From a virus: a DNA stretch of 63,666 nt. The notes beneath the pieces are model-generated. The model did no database searches, was not told the origin of the DNA, and was given only the letters and a program-made list of their open reading frames with translations. Position 1 is the first letter of the stretch. Every line of letters starts with the position of its first letter. The translations under genes and the position numbers were made by a program. The DNA is taken from positions 1 to 63,666 of the IMG/VR virus record IMGVR_UViG_3300044814_000016; one strand, 5' to 3'. Shown here piece by piece: positions 17,915-63,484 of the stretch.

Positions 17915-18107
17915 CCCGCACCTGCCCGTCTGGCCGCCGCCTGAGTAGCCTGCGCTGCTCCCACAGGCACACCGACTCCTGCGCGTAGTGCCTGCCCCAG
18001 AGCTGCCACTTGAGGAGCCCCCACGCCTTGCGCACCTGACGGCGCAGCCGACGCCACTCGTACCGCAGCCATTCGCTGGTGGTGTCGTCAGCGAGGATCG
18101 GGTCCAT
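17907..18107 (-). CDS. Small basic Trp/Arg-rich protein
   Basis: 66 residues from an ATG that overlaps the portal stop as TGATG; its stop overlaps the protease gene start by eight bases. Very basic and Trp-rich (WLRYEWRRLRRQVRKAW). No membrane span. Likely a nucleic-acid- or membrane-contacting small protein translated with the head genes; function unknown. Confidence 0.65.
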   Translation of the reverse strand: MDPILADDTTSEWLRYEWRRLRRQVRKAWGLLKWQLWGRHYAQESVCLWEQRRLLRRRPDGQVRDD

Positions 18108-20332
18108 CACTCACCACCCCACACCGCGATGACCGTGCCACGGCAGCGGAGCCCGCCTTCGCAGTCAACGAAACCCCCGGACGGGTACGCGTCCTCAGCA
18201 TCCGACAGGCTCTCGAACGCCTCACCGTCGATGTCCGCGCACGGCTCGCACGTGTTGTCGTCGTTGATCTCCGTTGCCGTGTACACCGCTGTGCCCGCGC
18301 TCTCGGGGGCAGCCTCCAGCACCGCGACCCTCCCCGTGTTCTGCGCAGCGGTCAGCGCAGCCCCGAGCTGATCCTTCAGGGAGACATCCGACAGGTCAGT
18401 GAGGAAGCTGTCGATCATGTCGCCTGCCTCGTCCGCGTCCTCGTCGCCCTCGTCGTCCGCAGCCCGGACCCGGCGTGTCGCCTTGACCGTCTGCATCGCC
18501 TTAGACCCGGCCTGCTGCGACAGCCACGCCGCGTGGAGCGCGGCGCGAGCCTGCGCGACCCGGCTTAGCTTCACCGCTGGCAGCTTCACCTTGCCCGCGT
18601 CGATCACGACACCCTGACGGTCCGCCTCGGCGATCATCATGTTGACTGCGGACTGGCTCAGCGTGTCCATCGCCTGCTGGATCAGCAGCGCACCAGGGGC
18701 CGGGTCGGCCTTGAGCTGCGCGAGCTTGTCAGGGCGCCCGGACTTCACTGCGGCGATCACCTGGTCAACGAGGTCGTTCCGCTGAGTGCGTAGCACCGCC
18801 CGGTAGTCGCTCATGAGCTTGCCGAGCGCGTTCGCGTGCTGGTGCTTCATCATCAGCGGGTCGAACCCGGATGCTGCCTCGACGGCGGTCATCGGGCGGC
18901 GCAGCCCGGCGGTGGCGCGTATCGCCCGGCGGCGCGCGGCGGGTGTCTGCGTCTTCTGGGTCTTGCCGGGTGCTGGCTTCGGCGGGGCGGGCAGCGGAGC
19001 CGGTGCGGGCAGGTCCGGGTTGTCCGGGTCCTGCACAGGCCCGGCCGGGGCACCAGGCGACGGGATGCCGCGTGTCGTCGGTTCCCACTCAGTGACGCGC
19101 AGCGGGATGCGCCATGTCTTCCTGATCCACTCGTCAAGCGCCGGGTCAGGCGACATCGCCCCGGTCTGCGTGAGCCGGTACAGCGCCTCAGCGGTGATCT
19201 CGTAGTTCTCGCCCACGTCGGTGCACACCAGGCGCGGGGCAGGCTCGTCCTCGCCGTAGTTGACGTCAACGATGTTCGTCACGATGCCGGGCATCGAACC
19301 GGGGTGACCGGAGGTGGCCGTCGTCGCGATCTCGTCAGCGAACCCCTGCAAGGCGAGCAGGAACAGGTCGAGGAACGTCTCACCGAGCGCCCGGTTCCCC
19401 GTGTCGGTCGTCCCGAGTTCGATGAGCTGCGCGAGGGCCATCTTCGCCATCGACTGGTCGAGGTACTTGATGAACCCGAGCGCGTCAGGCACCGAGCCGG
19501 TCATGCCGGCCAGGGCGAACTTGAACCCGTTCGGCAGGCCCACCCCGGTCTGGTCGCCGGCCCGGAACCCGGACGCGAGGTCGTTCGCCGACTGCACCTG
19601 CGCCGTCGTCCCACCGGCTGGTGCCTCAACAGTCGGGATACCCATCCCGAAGCGGCGGATCGACGTGGCGTGCACCCGCCATGTCTCGTGCTTCAGCAGC
19701 CACGCGCCGAAGCACGGGCGCAGCAGCGAGATCCCCGCCCAGTTCGCGCCCTCCTGGTTGTTCACGTACCAGAGCAGCCGGTTCGCCGGGATCGGCTCCG
19801 CCTGCGTTGTCTGCACGATCTCCTTGATGGAGGAGTCCTGGTTCAGGCGGATCTGCGCGAGCGTCCACGGCATCCGCGCCCCGAGGTTGTCGAGGTGGAA
19901 CAGCTTGTCGCCGTCGTCGTAGCGGTAGCGGAACTCGAACGGCATGTGCCCGTAGACGAGGTGATACAGCAGCTCCCGCAGGTGCCGGTGCCAGATCACC
20001 CCGCGCCGCCGCGCCGGACCCGGCCCCTTGTCATCCATCCCGAGGATGCCGATACCCATGTCGTCCGCTACGTGCTGCACAACCTTGTCCTTGCAGCCGT
20101 CCGGGTCAAGGACCCAGTTCGCGCGCATCATCGGCCCGAAGAAAGCCGAGAGCACCGCGCGTAGCTGCGGGTCGTGCCGCATGCGCCCGTAGGTGATCAC
20201 GGACTGCGGCCAGATGAGGTCGGCGGTGGTTTCCCACCAGTCGGTGAGGAGGCCCTGGCCCCACGTCCCCCAGTAGAGGTCAGTTGAGCCGATGTCCTGC
20301 GTCGGCGGCACCGGGCGGCTAGACGGGGCCAT
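18107..20332 (-). CDS. Portal protein fused to a MuF-like domain
   Basis: About 741 residues (ATG at 20332; a TTG codon precedes it). Residues 1-430 follow the DUF935/Mu gp29 portal pattern: WPQSVITYGRMRHDPQLRAVL, the hinge around VYGHMPFEFRYRYDD, KYLDQSMAKMALAQ and DVGENYEITAE. A Pro-rich linker (about 445-490) leads to a helical region and a C-terminal MuF-like segment with NTCEPCADIDGE..GGFVDCEGGLRCRG, whose Cys residues could bind metal. The portal forms the DNA channel; MuF domains are delivered or act in head assembly. It precedes the protease gene. Confidence 0.9.
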   Translation of the reverse strand: MAPSSRPVPPTQDIGSTDLYWGTWGQGLLTDWWETTADLIWPQSVITYGRMRHDPQLRAVLSAFFGPMMRANWVLDPDGCKDKVVQHVADDMGIGILGMDDKGPGPARRRGVIWHRHLRELLYHLVYGHMPFEFRYRYDDGDKLFHLDNLGARMPWTLAQIRLNQDSSIKEIVQTTQAEPIPANRLLWYVNNQEGANWAGISLLRPCFGAWLLKHETWRVHATSIRRFGMGIPTVEAPAGGTTAQVQSANDLASGFRAGDQTGVGLPNGFKFALAGMTGSVPDALGFIKYLDQSMAKMALAQLIELGTTDTGNRALGETFLDLFLLALQGFADEIATTATSGHPGSMPGIVTNIVDVNYGEDEPAPRLVCTDVGENYEITAEALYRLTQTGAMSPDPALDEWIRKTWRIPLRVTEWEPTTRGIPSPGAPAGPVQDPDNPDLPAPAPLPAPPKPAPGKTQKTQTPAARRRAIRATAGLRRPMTAVEAASGFDPLMMKHQHANALGKLMSDYRAVLRTQRNDLVDQVIAAVKSGRPDKLAQLKADPAPGALLIQQAMDTLSQSAVNMMIAEADRQGVVIDAGKVKLPAVKLSRVAQARAALHAAWLSQQAGSKAMQTVKATRRVRAADDEGDEDADEAGDMIDSFLTDLSDVSLKDQLGAALTAAQNTGRVAVLEAAPESAGTAVYTATEINDDNTCEPCADIDGEAFESLSDAEDAYPSGGFVDCEGGLRCRGTVIAVWGGE

Positions 20333-20625
20333 CAATCCCGCCTAGCGGTCGGCGGGAGAACACGTGCGCTCGTGTCACTCCGGGCATCAACGGCCCTCCC
20401 CGCCTGGAAACCGGGGCACGGCTGACGCCGTGTCCAGTCAGGCAGGTGTGACTATCCGCGAGCGTAGCACGGTAATCGTCACGCTCGGCTATACGCGGCA
20501 CCGCGCGGCCACAGCATCCCAGGCGGGTCAGACCATCGGTCAGCAGTGGTTACCAGCGCCGCAGGAACTGGGGACTTCCCCAAGTGGAGCGCTGAAATCG
20601 AACAAGCGTTCCTTCTGCGTCGCCT
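20333..20625. other. Intergenic region between GH16-like and portal genes
   Basis: About 290 bases with no convincing ORF. It contains small hairpins: CCCCG..CGGGG at 20397-20415, CACGGC-TGAC-GCCGTG at about 20416-20432, and an imperfect GAGCGT..ACGCTC pair around 20459-20487. These could end transcription of the glycosidase gene or form the portal mRNA leader. No strong promoter was recognised. Confidence 0.5.
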
Positions 20626-21447
20626 CTACGTGAACGCGTGCAGGTACGTGACCTTAACCCAGCCGCTCGTCTGACCCCCGCTCCCGCACACGTTCCCGTT
20701 GCTGGCGCTCGCGCACGAGCCGGTGTCGAACACGATCCAGAACGGGTCATTCTGATTGCCGTGATTCAGCACGTTCGCACCACTGATGAACGCGACCTCA
20801 GTGCCGTCGTACCAGACCGCGACCGCACCGCACCCCGTCCCGCAGGTGCCGAACACGTAATCCACGTAGTGCACACCGGGGGCGATCGCCGTCAGCGTGT
20901 CGGTGTTAGACGGCGACGTGATCGGCCCGGCGTTCGGGTCACAGTGATTGACGCTGTTGCAGTTGCTCACCGCAGCGGGGCCGCTAGCGCCCATGTAGTG
21001 GTACGAGACGTAGTTGTGGCCGCTGCCGCCCTCGACCGCGTCGATCTCACCATCGGTGGGCCAGTTGCTCCCGTACCCCCAGAACGCGTCCCACTGCGTC
21101 CAGTTGCTGACCTCGATCTTCGCCTCGTACACGTACCCGTCAGCGGTGGGGTACGTGTGCGGTGACTCCAGGTCGTTGCAGTCCCCCGTCGCGCCGCTCG
21201 TGCTGAGCTGGACGTACGACGTGTGATTCGAGATCTCGCCCTGGTTCGGGCTGGTGCAGTTCCCCGGCGCGTTCGACCCTGGTCCCCAGTTGTACAGGTC
21301 AGTCGGCGTCCACGCCTTCGCGAACGGGTGACCGGCGAGCGCCGCCGGGTAGGGCACCGGGTTACTCGCGTGAGCGGTACCAGGTGAGAGCGCGACGCCG
21401 CACAGCAGCAGCACGCCGCCGAGCAGGCCGGCGATTCGCTTACGCAT
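20626..21447 (-). CDS. Secreted GH16-like glycoside hydrolase
   Basis: 273 residues with an ideal AGGAGG before the ATG. Residues 1-28 are a Sec signal peptide (RKR, hydrophobic LLGGVLLLCGVAL, AHA-S cleavage). The mature part is Trp/Tyr/Gly-rich and beta-structured with six or more Cys. Near residue 131 it has DGEIDAVEGG, matching the GH16 active-site pattern E-[IL]-D-x-x-E with nucleophile and acid/base Glu. GH16 enzymes cleave beta-glucans, agar or related polysaccharides; the substrate here is unknown. Unusual location between portal and large terminase genes suggests a moron acquired from a bacterial host. Confidence 0.8.
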   Translation of the reverse strand: MRKRIAGLLGGVLLLCGVALSPGTAHASNPVPYPAALAGHPFAKAWTPTDLYNWGPGSNAPGNCTSPNQGEISNHTSYVQLSTSGATGDCNDLESPHTYPTADGYVYEAKIEVSNWTQWDAFWGYGSNWPTDGEIDAVEGGSGHNYVSYHYMGASGPAAVSNCNSVNHCDPNAGPITSPSNTDTLTAIAPGVHYVDYVFGTCGTGCGAVAVWYDGTEVAFISGANVLNHGNQNDPFWIVFDTGSCASASNGNVCGSGGQTSGWVKVTYLHAFT

Positions 21448-21455
21448 GATGCCTC

Positions 21456-23015
21456 CTAGAACGGGACGTTCATGATGTCGAGGTCAGTCTTGCCGTCACC
21501 CGTCGCACTGTGATGCGCGGCGGCGACGGAGCGCTCGAACGGCGTCACCGCAGTCCGGGTGATCCCCGTTGTCCTGCCCGGCGTCCACTCGTTGACGAGT
21601 ACCCGCGCCGCGTACGAGAACGTGTCCACCTGGTCATCATGAGCGCCCTGCGGGAAGATCGCCAGCTCGTCGCACCACTCGTCGAGCCATGGTGCCTCAG
21701 CAGGGAACCAGACCCGGCCCGCGTGTATCCGCCCCGCTGCGGGGATAGCCCGTGTCACCTTGTCGGTGTCAGCGATGACCTCAGCGATCGCGTACCCGGC
21801 TGCCTGCGCGTCCTTCACGAACGTCGAGCTGTAGAACACCTTCTCCACGTACGCCTGGTCGAACCGCCAGGTCGCCGCCAGCGGGGGCAGCAGCGCGAAG
21901 TGATCATGCATCTCAACCCTGGCCCGCGCCCGGTCGAGGAGGACGAGGAACCCTTCCGGTGTCACCGCCCACACCGCGATCACCGTGAAGTCAGCCGACG
22001 TCCTGGTGGACGCGGCGACGTCCACCGTCGCGAAGCGCCAGCAGTCATCAAGCGTCACCGGGGTACCCTCGCAGTCGATCCGCTGCCTGCCGTCGTTCCA
22101 CGCGGGCATCGGCCGCCAGTACCGGAACGACGCACGGCGGAAGAAGTTCCCCTCCGGTGCAGTCGGCGTCTGCTGGTACATCCCGGCGAACACGTACGGG
22201 CTCATGGTCGCCCGCCGGTTCAGGAAGTAACCCGGCTCCCTGCCCCGCACCGACGCAAGCTCCTCACCCGGTGCGCGCCCGATCTCGTCATCAGTTTCAG
22301 CGACCGCCGGGATGCGGAGCTGCCGCCACTTCAACGGCGACGGGCGCGAGAGGATACGCCCGGCGAGGTCATCCTCATGGAAGCGCGTCATGATCAGCAC
22401 GACACGGGTACGCGACCCGAACCGCGTCAGCGCGACGGACTCCCACCAGTCCCAGGTGGACTGCCGGATCGTCGCTGACTCTGCTGCGGCACGGTCCTTA
22501 ACCGGGTCGTCGATCACGAGGAGGCGCCCGACGCTGCGGCCGGTGAGCGGGCCGCCGACACCAGTGCAGTAGACACCGCCGCCCTCCTGCGTGTCCCACC
22601 TGCCCGCCGCAGACGAGTCCCGGCGAATGTGGACACGGAACGTATCCGGCGGGGCCACCGCGGCGTCCCACTTGATCTCACGCCCCCAGCGGATCGCCAT
22701 CTCGTCCTGGTACGACACGATCGCGACCTGCGCGTCCGGTTCACGGTCAAGCACCCACTCAGGCAGCCGCCTGGCGCACAGCGTTGACTTGCCTTCCTGC
22801 GCTGGCATCGACACGATCAGCGCGTTATACGGCGAGTCGTCAGCCATCAGCTCAGTGACCGCCTGGTTGATCGCGTTTAGGGCGGGGCTGCTCTTGGTGT
22901 CAGGGTCCATCGCCCGTGCCAGGTCAAGCGGTGTCTCGTACCGGACGGGCTGTACCTCGAACAGCCGTGCGGTGCGCTCACCGAGGGGAACCGTCAGGTC
23001 AGGGGGAGACGTCAC
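21456..23015 (-). CDS. terL: Terminase large subunit
   Basis: About 519 residues from a GTG at 23015; an upstream in-frame start at 23051 would overlap the preceding gene by 53 bases and adds an unlikely Arg/Ser-rich tail. ATPase: Walker A-like MPAQEGKST, Walker B LLVIDDPVKD, and MTRFHEDD. Nuclease: ATVDVAAS with D-F-T, and the final AHDDQVDTFSYA acid cluster. It cuts and pumps DNA through the portal. The small subunit gene is 8 kb away at 31025, an unusual separation. Confidence 0.93.
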   Translation of the reverse strand: MTSPPDLTVPLGERTARLFEVQPVRYETPLDLARAMDPDTKSSPALNAINQAVTELMADDSPYNALIVSMPAQEGKSTLCARRLPEWVLDREPDAQVAIVSYQDEMAIRWGREIKWDAAVAPPDTFRVHIRRDSSAAGRWDTQEGGGVYCTGVGGPLTGRSVGRLLVIDDPVKDRAAAESATIRQSTWDWWESVALTRFGSRTRVVLIMTRFHEDDLAGRILSRPSPLKWRQLRIPAVAETDDEIGRAPGEELASVRGREPGYFLNRRATMSPYVFAGMYQQTPTAPEGNFFRRASFRYWRPMPAWNDGRQRIDCEGTPVTLDDCWRFATVDVAASTRTSADFTVIAVWAVTPEGFLVLLDRARARVEMHDHFALLPPLAATWRFDQAYVEKVFYSSTFVKDAQAAGYAIAEVIADTDKVTRAIPAAGRIHAGRVWFPAEAPWLDEWCDELAIFPQGAHDDQVDTFSYAARVLVNEWTPGRTTGITRTAVTPFERSVAAAHHSATGDGKTDLDIMNVPF

Positions 23016-23652
23016 CGATCGTGTCCGTCTTGACGTGCCCGACCCGCACACCGCAATGCAGCAGCACCGGCACCTCAGCCATCGCGCAGCGCAGGCAGAA
23101 ACTCATGTCCTCACCGAACAGCTCCTGATCGATGATCATCTCCGCCCACCAGAAACCCTCGTCACCGGGCTTCGCGCCGTTGATCCGCTTGAACGCGTTC
23201 CGGTGCATGAGCAGGCAGCCGGCCCCGACCGCCGCGACCTGGAGGACACCATCGCCCTTGACCAGCTCAGGGGTGAGTGCCCCGAACCGGAACCGGCCCT
23301 GGTCATCGTGCCCGGCACCGTACGCGATCGGGTGCTCCTCACCTTTCTCACGCGAGTAGTAGACACCGCTGACAACGGGCGTGTCCTCCGGGTCAGCGGC
23401 GGCCAGCAGCGCGGGAAGCGTCCTGATGCTGAACTCAATGTCGGTGTCCACCATCCACAGCCACTCCTGGTCGCCGTCGAGGAACATCCGCGTGATCGCG
23501 TTGCGCGCCTTCGACATGACCGGCCCGGTCCCGTAGGCGAGCACCCGCGCGACCGGGTTGTCCTTCACCTCGTTCTGGTTCACGACCGACATCATGAACT
23601 CGGTGCGCACCGAACCGGGGTGCGGGAACGCGAGCATCACACTGGGTGTCAC
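22999..23652 (-). CDS. Glycosyltransferase, GT-A fold, paralogue 1
   Basis: 217 residues from a GTG that overlaps the upstream TGA (GTGA) with GGGAGG before it. It has the GT2/GT-A pattern: an N-terminal VRTEFMMSV strand-helix, a SKARNAITRMFL helix, WMVDTDIEF with the metal-binding DxD, PVVSGVYY, GAGCLLMHR and a GEDMSFCLR motif near the C-terminus. It ends VGHVK. It presumably transfers a sugar from a nucleotide donor; virion proteins made by the neighbouring genes are plausible acceptors, but DNA cannot be excluded. Confidence 0.85.
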   Translation of the reverse strand: MTPSVMLAFPHPGSVRTEFMMSVVNQNEVKDNPVARVLAYGTGPVMSKARNAITRMFLDGDQEWLWMVDTDIEFSIRTLPALLAAADPEDTPVVSGVYYSREKGEEHPIAYGAGHDDQGRFRFGALTPELVKGDGVLQVAAVGAGCLLMHRNAFKRINGAKPGDEGFWWAEMIIDQELFGEDMSFCLRCAMAEVPVLLHCGVRVGHVKTDTIGDVSP

Positions 23653-24293
23653 GTGACCTCCCCGAGCAGAACCGGCTTGACGTGCCCGACTTGGATGCCG
23701 GTGTGGACGTGCAACCGGATGTCGCACTGCTGCGCGCGGATGCAGAACGACAGGTCTTCACCGACCGGGTGCTCGTTCCACTCCATCTCGGTGAACCAGC
23801 GCGGGCCGTGCTTCGCCGCGATGTCCTCCAGTACGCTGCGGTGAATCAGCATGCACCCGGCACCGAGGCCCGCGACCCGGCGCAGGCGCCCGCCGTCTAG
23901 GTGCTCGGTGAGGGGAATGAAGCAGCCCTTGTCATCCGGGCCGGCCTCGTACGCGGCGGGACCCTGCTCGCCCTTGCGCAGCACGCGGTAGAGCGCTGAC
24001 ACGACCGGGCAGTACAGCGGGTCGGCGACGCCGAGCAGGCGCGGCAGCGTATCCGGGCGGAACACGATGTCAGTATCGATCGTCCACAGCCACTCGCACT
24101 CAGTCTCAAGGAACCGGGTCACGAGCTGGTTACGGGCGATCGCGATGAGCGGGCCTGCTGTGCTGTCGAGCATCCGCGTGATCAGCGGTGTCGCCTGCGG
24201 GCTCATGCACGCGTTGAACACGCTCGTCATGAACTCGGTTCGCACGGTGCCGCCGTGGATGAACCCGAGGAGCACCTGCCCGTCACCGCTCAT
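23649..24293 (-). CDS. Glycosyltransferase, GT-A fold, paralogue 2
   Basis: 214 residues. A tandem duplicate of the 22999 gene: VRTEFMTSV, ARNQLVTRFL, WTIDTDIVF (DxD), PVVSALYR, GAGCMLIHR, EDLSFCIR and VGHVK occur in the same order. The genes overlap by four bases and are followed by the terminase. Two diverged copies suggest different donors or acceptors, or sequential sugar additions. Confidence 0.85.
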   Translation of the reverse strand: MSGDGQVLLGFIHGGTVRTEFMTSVFNACMSPQATPLITRMLDSTAGPLIAIARNQLVTRFLETECEWLWTIDTDIVFRPDTLPRLLGVADPLYCPVVSALYRVLRKGEQGPAAYEAGPDDKGCFIPLTEHLDGGRLRRVAGLGAGCMLIHRSVLEDIAAKHGPRWFTEMEWNEHPVGEDLSFCIRAQQCDIRLHVHTGIQVGHVKPVLLGEVT

Positions 24294-24933: not shown

Positions 24934-24966
24934 CCGCACGGCCGTCACTGCCCGTCAGCCGTGCGG
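24934..24966 (-). terminator. Hairpin overlapping the repeat-protein stop codon
   Basis: A perfect 9-bp stem, CCGCACGGC / GCCGTGCGG, with a 15-base loop that contains the TGA of the upstream gene (24955-24957). The 3' arm is an inverted copy of the PHGRW codon unit of that gene. No U-tract follows, so it may attenuate, protect the mRNA end or be a by-product of the repeats. Confidence 0.45.
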
Positions 24967-26928
24967 CGGGGATGCCCCCCACCGGCCGTGCGGTGTACCA
25001 GCACCATACCGCCCGTGCGGCTGACCTGTCGTGGCCCAGCGCCCGTGCCCGCTGCTGCCCGCCCACCGGCCATGCGGTGCCCCCGCCGACCACCTGCCGT
25101 GCGGTGCACCCGCCGTCACGCCCCGCAAGGCGATGAACGTCGCAGGCGGCGGCAGCAACGCGATCGCTGACCCGAGCACCGAGATCACCGCGGCCTGAGC
25201 CTTGAACGACACCGCCGTGACCGGCGTGACGGGGACCGTAGTCACCGCAGCCGCAGCCGGGGCGACGCCGACAGCCGCGTGCGGTGCGGTCACCGCCGTG
25301 GCGATCGCTGCCGCCTGCGCGGCGATGAGCTGCCCGGCGGTGACGGTCGCACCGGGAGCCACGGCAGTGACCGAGGCGGCGAGCGCAGTGAACTGCACCT
25401 GCACCTGCGCTGGCACCGCCGCCGTGCTGATCGCGGCGGCCTGAGCGGGTGCGAACGTCGGACTGGACGTGACGACGCTCGCACCGGGGTCGGCGGCGCT
25501 GATCAGGGCTGCGCTGCTGTTGACGGTGACCGCGATGCTCGGGCTGGTCACAGCGGCGGCACCTGCCGCCGATGCAGCGTTCACCGTCACTCGCGCGAGC
25601 GCTGCCGTGGCGCTCCCCAGCACCTGCGCCGCGCTCGCGTTCACGAGCACCGTGACGAGCGGCCCGGTGACGGCGGCAAGTACGGCCGCACTTCCGGCGG
25701 GGATGATCACGCTGACCTGAGCGGGCATGCCCTGCACGGCTACGGCAGCGACACCAGCGGGTGCGTTAGTAACCGAAGCTGTTGACACGGTCGCGCCTGG
25801 TGCTGCCGCCAGGATCGAGGCTGCCGCCGCCAGGATGGTCACCTGCGTCACCGCAGGTACCGAGGCGACGCTGACGGCAGCCGGAGCGGCGGCGACGCTC
25901 GCCGCTGTGAGCAGCGCCGGTCCCGTCGAGGCGACGGCGACGGCAGCGGGTACGGCGAGAGCGCTGACAGCAGTCGTCACTGTCGCGCCGCTGACCGCTG
26001 TCAGCACCTGCGCGGGTGCGGCGGGGATGGTCACCGCTGCGCTCGTGATCACGCTGGCGCTGCTGACAGCGGCGGGCTGCGCGTTGACCGTGACCGCAAC
26101 CGACGCGTTCGCAGCGGCTACATCCGCCTCAACAGGGCCGGCAGGCGCGTTAACCGGGGTGACCGCGCTGGCCTGCGGGAGACCGTACGACTGCCCGTAA
26201 CGGCGGAACGCCATCGGGGACTGGCGACCAGGCGGGATCAACTGCTCCGAGTCGGTCGGCTCATTGCCGCCAGCAGCGGGGACAGTGGCGGTGTAGATCG
26301 TGACGTTAGCGGCGGTGAACGCTGACACGGTGCTGACGCGCTTCGTCCAGGTCAGCGCCCCGCCCGTGTTGCTGATGGTAAAGTTCGCCGCTGATGTTCC
26401 GACGTTGCCGTCCTCGCAGTAGACGGCAACGAGGACACTGCCCGCTGGTGGGGTAAACGCCGCTGTCGTCGCAGAAGCGGGGGTATTCACCGCCCCGGTG
26501 GTGCCGACCGCAGCCGGGGTAGAACCGTCGAGGACCGGGGTGCTGCCGCCTACGGACTCGATCTCGTACGCCGCAAGGCAGTTGCTGCCTACTGTTCCGC
26601 CAGCAGTCGCGCCGACCGTAACAGGTGTCCCGCTAGTCACGGTGCCGGAGTAGTGACCCTGCCAGCCTTCCCAGCCGTTAGTCCCGTCAGTATCGGTGTT
26701 ATACGCGGTGTTGTTCGCCGCGAGCGTGTACGCCGTGTTGATGGCACCATTCGCCATCCCCGCGATGATCAGCGAGTTAGTGGCGTTAGGGGTGAAGCTC
26801 AGGCTGTAGACGCCGTTGTTCTGGGCGCTGTTACCGCCTGCCTCAACGGCGGCGGTGAGGACCGCGACGTACAGGCTTGAACCGTCAGCGGTACCAACCG
26901 TGTCGGTGCAGGTGACGGTGTAAGCCAC
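24955..26928 (-). CDS. Ala/Val-rich repeat protein with C-terminal PHGRW repeats
   Basis: 657 residues. Residues 1-230 are a beta domain (N-x-L-I-I-A-G-x strand, GTVGSNCLAAYE, a CEDGNVGT turn), like surface or fibre domains. From about 250 to 600 the sequence is almost only Ala, Val, Thr, Ser, Pro in irregular repeats near 20 residues (units like APA-x-V-x-V-x-x-x-AA-x-V-x-x-A). The last 55 residues contain PHGRW or variants six times (GAPHGRW, SGHGRW, QPHGRY, PPHG). No family recognised for the repeats. Context points to an elongated virion appendage. Confidence 0.82.
   Translation of the reverse strand: MAYTVTCTDTVGTADGSSLYVAVLTAAVEAGGNSAQNNGVYSLSFTPNATNSLIIAGMANGAINTAYTLAANNTAYNTDTDGTNGWEGWQGHYSGTVTSGTPVTVGATAGGTVGSNCLAAYEIESVGGSTPVLDGSTPAAVGTTGAVNTPASATTAAFTPPAGSVLVAVYCEDGNVGTSAANFTISNTGGALTWTKRVSTVSAFTAANVTIYTATVPAAGGNEPTDSEQLIPPGRQSPMAFRRYGQSYGLPQASAVTPVNAPAGPVEADVAAANASVAVTVNAQPAAVSSASVITSAAVTIPAAPAQVLTAVSGATVTTAVSALAVPAAVAVASTGPALLTAASVAAAPAAVSVASVPAVTQVTILAAAASILAAAPGATVSTASVTNAPAGVAAVAVQGMPAQVSVIIPAGSAAVLAAVTGPLVTVLVNASAAQVLGSATAALARVTVNAASAAGAAAVTSPSIAVTVNSSAALISAADPGASVVTSSPTFAPAQAAAISTAAVPAQVQVQFTALAASVTAVAPGATVTAGQLIAAQAAAIATAVTAPHAAVGVAPAAAAVTTVPVTPVTAVSFKAQAAVISVLGSAIALLPPPATFIALRGVTAGAPHGRWSAGAPHGRWAGSSGHGRWATTGQPHGRYGAGTPHGRWGASPPHG
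24960..25110 (-). repeat. PHGRW codon repeats
   Basis: Six units containing CCGCACGGC or CCGCATGGC followed by CGGTGG/CGCTGG/CGGTAT, spaced 21-30 bases. They encode the C-terminal PHGRW/HGRY motifs. An inverted seventh copy lies just after the stop codon. Confidence 0.75.
25200..26120 (-). repeat. Degenerate Ala/Val-coding repeats
   Basis: Coding-sequence repeats inside the 657-residue protein, roughly one unit per 60 bases, each encoding alternating Val/Ala strands with a Pro-Ala turn. Units are diverged but the period is visible from recurring GCGGCG/GTCAC blocks. Confidence 0.6.
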
Positions 26929-28735: not shown

Positions 28736-28804
28736 GGTGTCTCCCGTTGGTCGGTCGGGTTGTCACCTTGAGGGTACGCCCGTCATGAGGGACGCGGTAT
28801 CAGG

Positions 28805-28876
28805 CAGCGCCAGCGGGATTCGAACCCGCCCCGTCCGGTACAGCCCGGCCGTGTCCGTCCTCTACACCATGGCGCT
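28805..28876 (-). tRNA. tRNA-like element with abnormal anticodon arm
   Basis: 72 bases. The acceptor is a perfect 7 bp (AGCGCCA/TGGCGCT) with G discriminator; the D stem is 4 bp (GTGT/ACAC) with GG in its loop; the T arm is a perfect 5 bp (GCGGG/CCCGC) with loop TTCGAAT. The anticodon arm has only a 4-bp CCGG stem and a 6-base GCTGTA loop, one base short and lacking U33 in the usual place, so identity is uncertain (the D arm and discriminator resemble tRNA-Gln; CTG is in the loop). The 3' bases are CCT, not CCA. Confidence 0.6.
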
Positions 28877-62359: not shown

Positions 62360-63484
62360 CTACGCCGTGGTGAACTCAGTCCACCCTGACCAGGTACCGG
62401 ACGACACCCGGAACCGGAACTTCGAGGCGGGCGCGACCGCCAGCGGAAGAGACGTCGCGCTCACCGTCTCCGTGACACTGAGCACCCAGCCGAACTTCGG
62501 CTTGTAATACTCAAGCTGCACCTCGTACGACGTGACGCCCTTCACAGCCGCCCAGGAGAGCGTCACCCTCGCGGCGGTCGACACGCTGACGCCCTTGAGC
62601 CCGGTCGGGGCAGGCGGCGGCACCGCCGGGGGCTTCGGCGGCGGCGTGATGATGACCGGCCCGGCGAGCTTGGTGAACGTCGCCTGGGTGCAGACGCCGG
62701 CCGCGACGCCGCGCTCACCGAAGAACGCCTGCGCGAGCGCGACCGCCCCGGCGGTGACCGGCCCGTAGTTTCCGTCCTTCGTGACCTGCGTCACCGGGAT
62801 ACCGAGCGCCGCAGCCCACTTGACCAGGTTCCCCTGGAGCTGCCACACGAGCCCGTTCGGCGCCGGGTCGATCATGCCCTGCTTGAGCGGGAACGTGAGC
62901 GCGGTCGCGTGACGCGGCCACTGCCCGAAGTCCGCGGCCATGCTCTCGTCCCAGTCGGCTGACTGCCCGGCGACGGTGACGCCGTTCTGCACCTGGCGTA
63001 GCTGCGCACGGGCGTCCCACTGCCCGCCTGACCAGGCGTACGTCTGCCATCCGTACGTGATCTTCCCGGCGTTGAACGCGCGGCTCAGCGGGTAGAAGCC
63101 GGCGTACAGCCCGACGCGCGCCTTGCCGATGACGCTGGCTGCCCCGTCGAGGTACGCGTTGATCGCCGCTTGCTGCGCCGCGCTCGCGTCGAAGTCCGCC
63201 GCGAAGTGGATCGGGTCACCCGTCATGCCGAGCGCCTTGACCTGCGCGTCGGCTGCCTGCGCGTCCGCGACCCCGGCCGCGAACCCGCTCAGCGCCCGGT
63301 TCGCGCTCGACTCCCACACCACCACGACCGCGAGACCCGCAGCGACCGCCGCGTTCTTCTCGGCTACCGTCAGGTTCTTGCTCGGGTCCGGGGACAGGTA
63401 CCGGGCGATGAACCCGACACCGAGTGACTTCAGGGTGCTCATGTTCGGCTTCGGGTTGGACCAGGCGTAATCGATCCCGCGCAT
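62360..63484 (-). CDS. Endolysin: DUF1906 glycoside-hydrolase-like, linker, Fn3
   Basis: 374 residues. Residues 1-210 match the DUF1906 (Rv2525c-like) family: GIDYAWSNPKPNMSTLKSLGVGFIARYLSPD, VVVVWES, IHFAADFDAS, GLYAGFYPLSRA. About 210-285 is a peptidoglycan-binding-like helical repeat region (NGLVWQLQGNLVKW); a Pro-rich linker follows and 290-374 is an Fn3 domain. It should cut the host wall. No signal peptide, so a holin is needed, encoded next. Confidence 0.85.
   Translation of the reverse strand: MRGIDYAWSNPKPNMSTLKSLGVGFIARYLSPDPSKNLTVAEKNAAVAAGLAVVVVWESSANRALSGFAAGVADAQAADAQVKALGMTGDPIHFAADFDASAAQQAAINAYLDGAASVIGKARVGLYAGFYPLSRAFNAGKITYGWQTYAWSGGQWDARAQLRQVQNGVTVAGQSADWDESMAADFGQWPRHATALTFPLKQGMIDPAPNGLVWQLQGNLVKWAAALGIPVTQVTKDGNYGPVTAGAVALAQAFFGERGVAAGVCTQATFTKLAGPVIITPPPKPPAVPPPAPTGLKGVSVSTAARVTLSWAAVKGVTSYEVQLEYYKPKFGWVLSVTETVSATSLPLAVAPASKFRFRVSSGTWSGWTEFTTA

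Follow-up and report, generated by a model that had tools for sequence, protein, structure and literature searches.

A 63,666-base virus record, analysed at its full length (hereafter the window), encodes a divergent GH16 protein with a predicted Sec signal peptide between its large terminase (terL) and portal genes. In our judgement it is somewhat better than an even bet, with a probability of roughly 0.55, that this protein is a Sec-exported, single-domain, retaining GH16 accessory glycosidase that is made late and cuts extracellular beta-glucan, most likely as an endo-beta-1,3(-1,4)-glucanase. The features of the locus are listed in Table 1.

Table 1 Features of the GH16 locus and its surroundings. 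Positions are those of the window unless a record handle precedes them.
Feature	Position	Strand	Basis
Gene for a putatively exported GH16-type glycosidase, 273-aa precursor	20626..21447	-	ORF list; GH16 by profile, fold and motif
Predicted Sec signal peptide, residues 1-27	21367..21447	-	Sequence; hydropathy
EIDAVE, the catalytic beta-bulge motif, with E134 as nucleophile and E139 as acid/base (both by homology) and D136	21031..21048	-	ExDxxE as in PMC6827312
His150, conserved His on the strand adjoining the catalytic motif	20998..21000	-	Feature described in PMC6827312
Shine-Dalgarno AGGAGG, overlapping the terL stop codon	21452..21457	-	Sequence
Large terminase (terL), upstream flank of the slot	21456..23051	-	PF03237/PF17289; phrog_38, E 1e-83
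Portal protein, downstream flank of the slot	18107..20335	-	PF06074; phrog_113, E 9e-67
290-bp apparently non-coding, stem-rich spacer from GH16 gene to portal	20336..20625	-	No clear gene
Slot family of ~150 aa	L002:7169-7633, L004:1901-2368, L014:10924-11448, L034:408-857, L040:977-1432, L143:1754-2197		

The boundaries of the GH16 ORF are exact, and its ATG start is preceded at 4 bases by AGGAGG in the upstream sequence (TAGGAGGCATCATG). The GC content at codon positions 1, 2 and 3 (0.56, 0.54 and 0.88) resembled that of the neighbouring genes, and the homologues of the protein aligned over the full mature length. Comparison with the gene of a relative, L058, gave a dN of 0.35 against a saturated dS of approximately 1.7, demonstrating that the GH16 gene evolves under purifying selection. 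The Shine-Dalgarno sequence, the codon-position bias, the homologues and the purifying selection rule out a chance ORF in this 67% GC genome. The initial annotation had placed the gene between the portal and large terminase genes, and both flanks were found there. The closest terL matches in named phages were mostly phages of Brevibacterium, Arthrobacter, Microbacterium and Glutamicibacter, suggesting that the host is likely to be actinobacterial; the top match was a Microcystis phage, and identities to named-phage terL proteins were only 31–37%.

No Pfam, PHROG or NCBIfam model matched the GH16 protein. PF00722 did not match it at E 1, nor did the PF00722 search of the whole record find it, and the relatives L058, L063 and L064 were likewise without a match to this model. 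A phmmer search with the single protein against the PDB returned a sole match, the GH16 entry 5jvv (E 4e-4). Scanning viral contigs with the pattern FWx5WPxxGEIDxxE yielded ten contigs, one of which carried the full-length relative L058 (59–62% identity), and a scan with a ten-row alignment (A2), five members of which match PF00722, added L063 (52% identity) and L064 (36–38%). All 14 PDB sequences matched by a profile of four rows (A4; the phage GH16 protein, L058, L063 and L064) were GH16 (best E 1e-6), and hhalign aligned A4 with 11 distant phage GH16 domains at a probability of 98.9 and an E value of 2.7e-17 over 187 columns. The ExDxxE beta-bulge motif and a His on the next strand are features of the GH16 family (PMC6827312). 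E134, D136, E139 and H150 were invariant across 15 phage GH16 domains, including both glutamates of the E-I-D-A-V-E sequence that had been proposed as the active site. We conclude that the protein is a genuine, though divergent, GH16 domain. A weak match of the A3 profile in the related phage L049 (304-aa frame from 15222, E 0.0045) was a domain without ExDxxE and was excluded from GH16.

The AlphaFold model of the mature protein, based on 15 sequences, had a pLDDT of 76.5 and a pTM of 0.80; these values come from a model built with distant GH16 rows and so overlap in part with the sequence evidence. Its best matches by Foldseek and VIA-align were GH16 glucanases and GH16 O-glycanases with Z scores of 16–18 and an rmsd of 2.7–3.5 across about 190–214 residues, in agreement with the fold initially suggested. 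A first model with fewer rows was weak (pLDDT 48) and was set aside as too poor for reliance; GH16 endo-1,3-beta-glucanases still ranked first among its matches. The phage protein shares its fold, ExDxxE and the next-strand His with the endo-beta-1,3-glucanases of the GH16 beta-bulge branch (5jvv, 3wdt, 2vy0, 5wut and 3atg), whereas its sequence similarity to them is only local (about 12–18% identity in the fold matches), PF00722 misses it and Cys-containing insertions follow its catalytic strand.

The fold matches of the better model also included Rv0315 and its orthologues. Rv0315 is a GH16 protein with both Glu residues that is nevertheless inactive (PMC4606783), and this precedent would fit an inactive, binding-only protein in the phage, one that coats glycans of the host or the environment, for instance to block superinfection or act as a decoy. 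The invariance of the E, D, E and adjoining His residues over wide divergence suggests selection for activity instead, and we regard the binding-only alternative as distinctly improbable. GH16 also covers galactanases, agarases, carrageenases, O-glycanases and transglycosylases, and its specificity is broad. Because of this breadth, and because the best fold matches include O-glycanases, naming glucan as the substrate is guesswork based on the commonest neighbours; together with the inactivity of Rv0315, the breadth also makes both activity and substrate uncertain.

The precursor begins with a typical Sec layout, as the initial annotation had recognised. Residues 1–27 (MRKRIAGLLGGVLLLCGVALSPGTAHA) comprise a positive n-region (MRKR), a hydrophobic core (KD 2.6 from residue 8) and an AxA cleavage site, AHA/SNPVPYP, as read from the sequence. 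The cleavage region is kept in L058 (AHA/SNPVPYP) and L063 (AHA/ANPVPLP); three of the four close members have a signal peptide, and L064 is without one. The mature protein contains eight cysteines, six of which are common to L058, and multiple cysteines are usual in exported proteins. A lipoprotein was ruled out, since Cys16 lies outside any lipobox and L058 has no Cys there. A tail or virion protein was also ruled out in this phage by the absence of a tail domain and the presence of the signal peptide.

The GH16 gene was absent from all 30 related phage records, some of which are fragments, and from the further loci fetched. The 51 distinct terL–portal junctions of related phages comprised 12 with gaps of ≤30 bp, 10 with gaps of 31–300 bp and 29 with larger gaps. 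Because the gene is missing from the related records and the junction is elsewhere empty or differently filled, it is cargo (a moron or accessory gene) in a hotspot and not a conserved head gene; its position in a head-gene operon, as first described, does not extend to functional membership. The spacer between the GH16 and portal genes showed no homology in related loci and no Rfam match, and it is part of the inserted segment, given that the gap in empty-site relatives is ≤30 bp.

The cargo found at this junction in related phages is diverse. It includes HNH-type endonucleases in L049 (Pfam above cut-off), L017 (weak) and L085 (by eye), a C5-cytosine DNA methylase in L017, and a 716-aa protein with nine treble-clef zinc-finger repeats (DUF4379; L019:1218-3368, +), the tail of which appears GIY-YIG-like by eye. 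L031:11520-12464 (+) encodes a protein with a signal peptide and a Neprosin match (PF03080, E 9e-16). A recurrent family of approximately 150 aa (..QVAPYPD..RTSFRG..) occupies the slot in several records (Table 1), and its L002 member had no Pfam match. The slot ORF at L085:5540-6223 is glycosyltransferase-like, as judged by its likeness to 23649-24293 of the GH16 phage. The latter lies within a pair of adjacent, overlapping glycosyltransferase-like genes just upstream of terL (22999-24293, minus strand; both phrog_34859 and phrog_1574), which look like diverged tandem duplicates.

Several other minus-strand features of the window were recorded. The gene at 38262-39224 matches phrog_842 (E 8.5e-44), named beta-glucosyl-HMC-alpha-glucosyltransferase, and this match may hint at DNA base glycosylation. 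A tRNA-like gene lies at 28803-28876, with an anticodon not typed by ARAGORN. The 657-aa protein encoded at 24955-26928 is very Ala/Val-rich and repetitive, ends in a C-terminal HGRW-repeat tract (PHGRWSAGAPHGRWAG...) and had no PHROG match.

The three relatives of the GH16 protein, at 62, 52 and 38% identity, are located in three unrelated large viral records. One (G001, 79 kb) contains helicase, DNA polymerase and structural genes and no terL of the type found in the GH16 phage. Another (G032, 119 kb) has an HK97 capsid and a portal at 17–22 kb and its GH16 gene at 93.8 kb, and the remaining one (G033, 124 kb) has terL and portal genes with a terminase of another type. In G033, the terminase and portal genes flank a transposase gene (L168:12468-13658, +; phrog_506), so this kind of junction has received an insertion in an unrelated phage as well. 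The occurrence in four unrelated records, together with a dN of 0.35 against a saturated dS, indicates that the GH16 family passes from phage to phage and is maintained by selection. The single protein, used as a query, gave no match in phages, plasmids, viral contigs or GTDB genome contigs, the last two scanned by exact 7–8 residue patterns, and the two-row alignment likewise gave none in genome contigs scanned in this way. Both the viral and genome scans need such exact patterns, and the first viral scan missed L058.

In L064, an endolysin-type gene encoding a peptidoglycan-binding domain lies two genes before that of the relative, which has an N-terminal extension resembling a small protein encoded immediately upstream. 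This neighbourhood, and the identity of the nearest PDB sequence match, 5jvv, as a GH16 beta-1,3-glucosyltransferase, would be expected of a wall-modifying transglycosylase or galactan hydrolase that acts on host wall polysaccharide and aids lysis alongside the endolysin. In the window, however, some 41 kb separate the GH16 gene from the phage's own endolysin-like gene (62360-63484), and the GH16 protein has no wall-binding domain; GH16 enzymes are not known to cut peptidoglycan. We regard a role at the host wall as improbable.

In the reading we prefer, that of an exported beta-glucan-cutting enzyme, the gene would have been inserted between terL and portal as an accessory gene. The overlap of its Shine-Dalgarno sequence with the terL stop codon makes it likely that the gene is translated, from this strong site of its own, on a presumably late head transcript that runs through terL. 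The precursor would then cross the host membrane via Sec and lose 27 residues, and the mature enzyme would fold beyond the membrane and act extracellularly late in infection and after lysis. There, the two-Glu retaining mechanism of GH16 would hydrolyse extracellular beta-glucan, supplied by host or neighbour exopolysaccharide or by glucan debris, with a presumed benefit to phage or host. Such an enzyme might act on the host coat or a surrounding biofilm, as raised in the initial annotation.

The same exported enzyme could instead be a nutritional auxiliary protein, freeing sugars from the glucan of plants, fungi or microbes to feed the infected host or its kin and having no direct role in phage release. 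GH16 is among the glycosidase genes seen repeatedly as auxiliary genes in soil viruses (PMC6460857, PMC10127799), one viral chitosanase from soil has proved active (PMC9485262), and the accessory status of the GH16 gene would suit such a function. Its position after terL nevertheless points to late expression, at a stage when nourishing the host would help little, and one relative lies beside an endolysin and another downstream of lysin-like genes. On balance, we find the nutritional alternative rather unlikely. We hold with equal reserve a further, more novel reading. In it, the family would be a GH16 clade adapted to phages and missed by standard annotation, and it would serve as a free depolymerase, Sec-exported before lysis and clearing extracellular glucan around the infected colony; the terL–portal slot in some of these phages would deliver exported hydrolases late in infection, represented by the GH16 protein and the neprosin-like protease of L031.

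Viral GH16 proteins are already known. The GH16 glucanase of Chlorella virus PBCV-1 was named in 2019 as the only characterised viral GH16 (PMC6827312); compared by description, it is likewise a viral GH16, from a eukaryotic algal virus rather than a tailed phage. GH16 genes have been reported in viromes of compost-amended soil (PMC12016548), mangrove (PMC6460857) and tundra (PMC10127799), so that the earlier statement that phages rarely export glycosidases is poorly founded for glycosidases as such; no statement on export of GH16 was found in these three papers, and neither a signal peptide nor secretion is mentioned in the paper on the soil viral chitosanase (PMC9485262). These GH16 and chitosanase genes are likewise polysaccharide hydrolases on phage contigs (PMC10127799, PMC6460857, PMC12016548, PMC9485262), but they were found by standard annotation, which misses the present clade. 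GH16 or laminarinase-like domains of the same fold class also occur within larger phage proteins (A0A8S5N0Z9, L052 and L054). Those of L052 and L054 belong to proteins without an evident signal peptide, whereas the present protein is small and predicted to be exported. In two viral contigs (L073:5149-7311 and L074:4768-7431), a GH16 domain is fused with an apparent secreted phosphoesterase-type domain. What is new here is a divergent clade that is invisible to standard models, predicted to be exported and present in unrelated phages, with one member in the terL–portal slot.

If the enzyme is active, it would show that phages have exported polysaccharide hydrolases at their disposal under late control, apart from tail depolymerases and endolysins. 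An active GH16 clade common to unrelated phages and invisible to Pfam and PHROGs would also mean that viral carbohydrate enzymes are undercounted. The terL–portal slot is a convenient site in which to search for further cargo of this kind.
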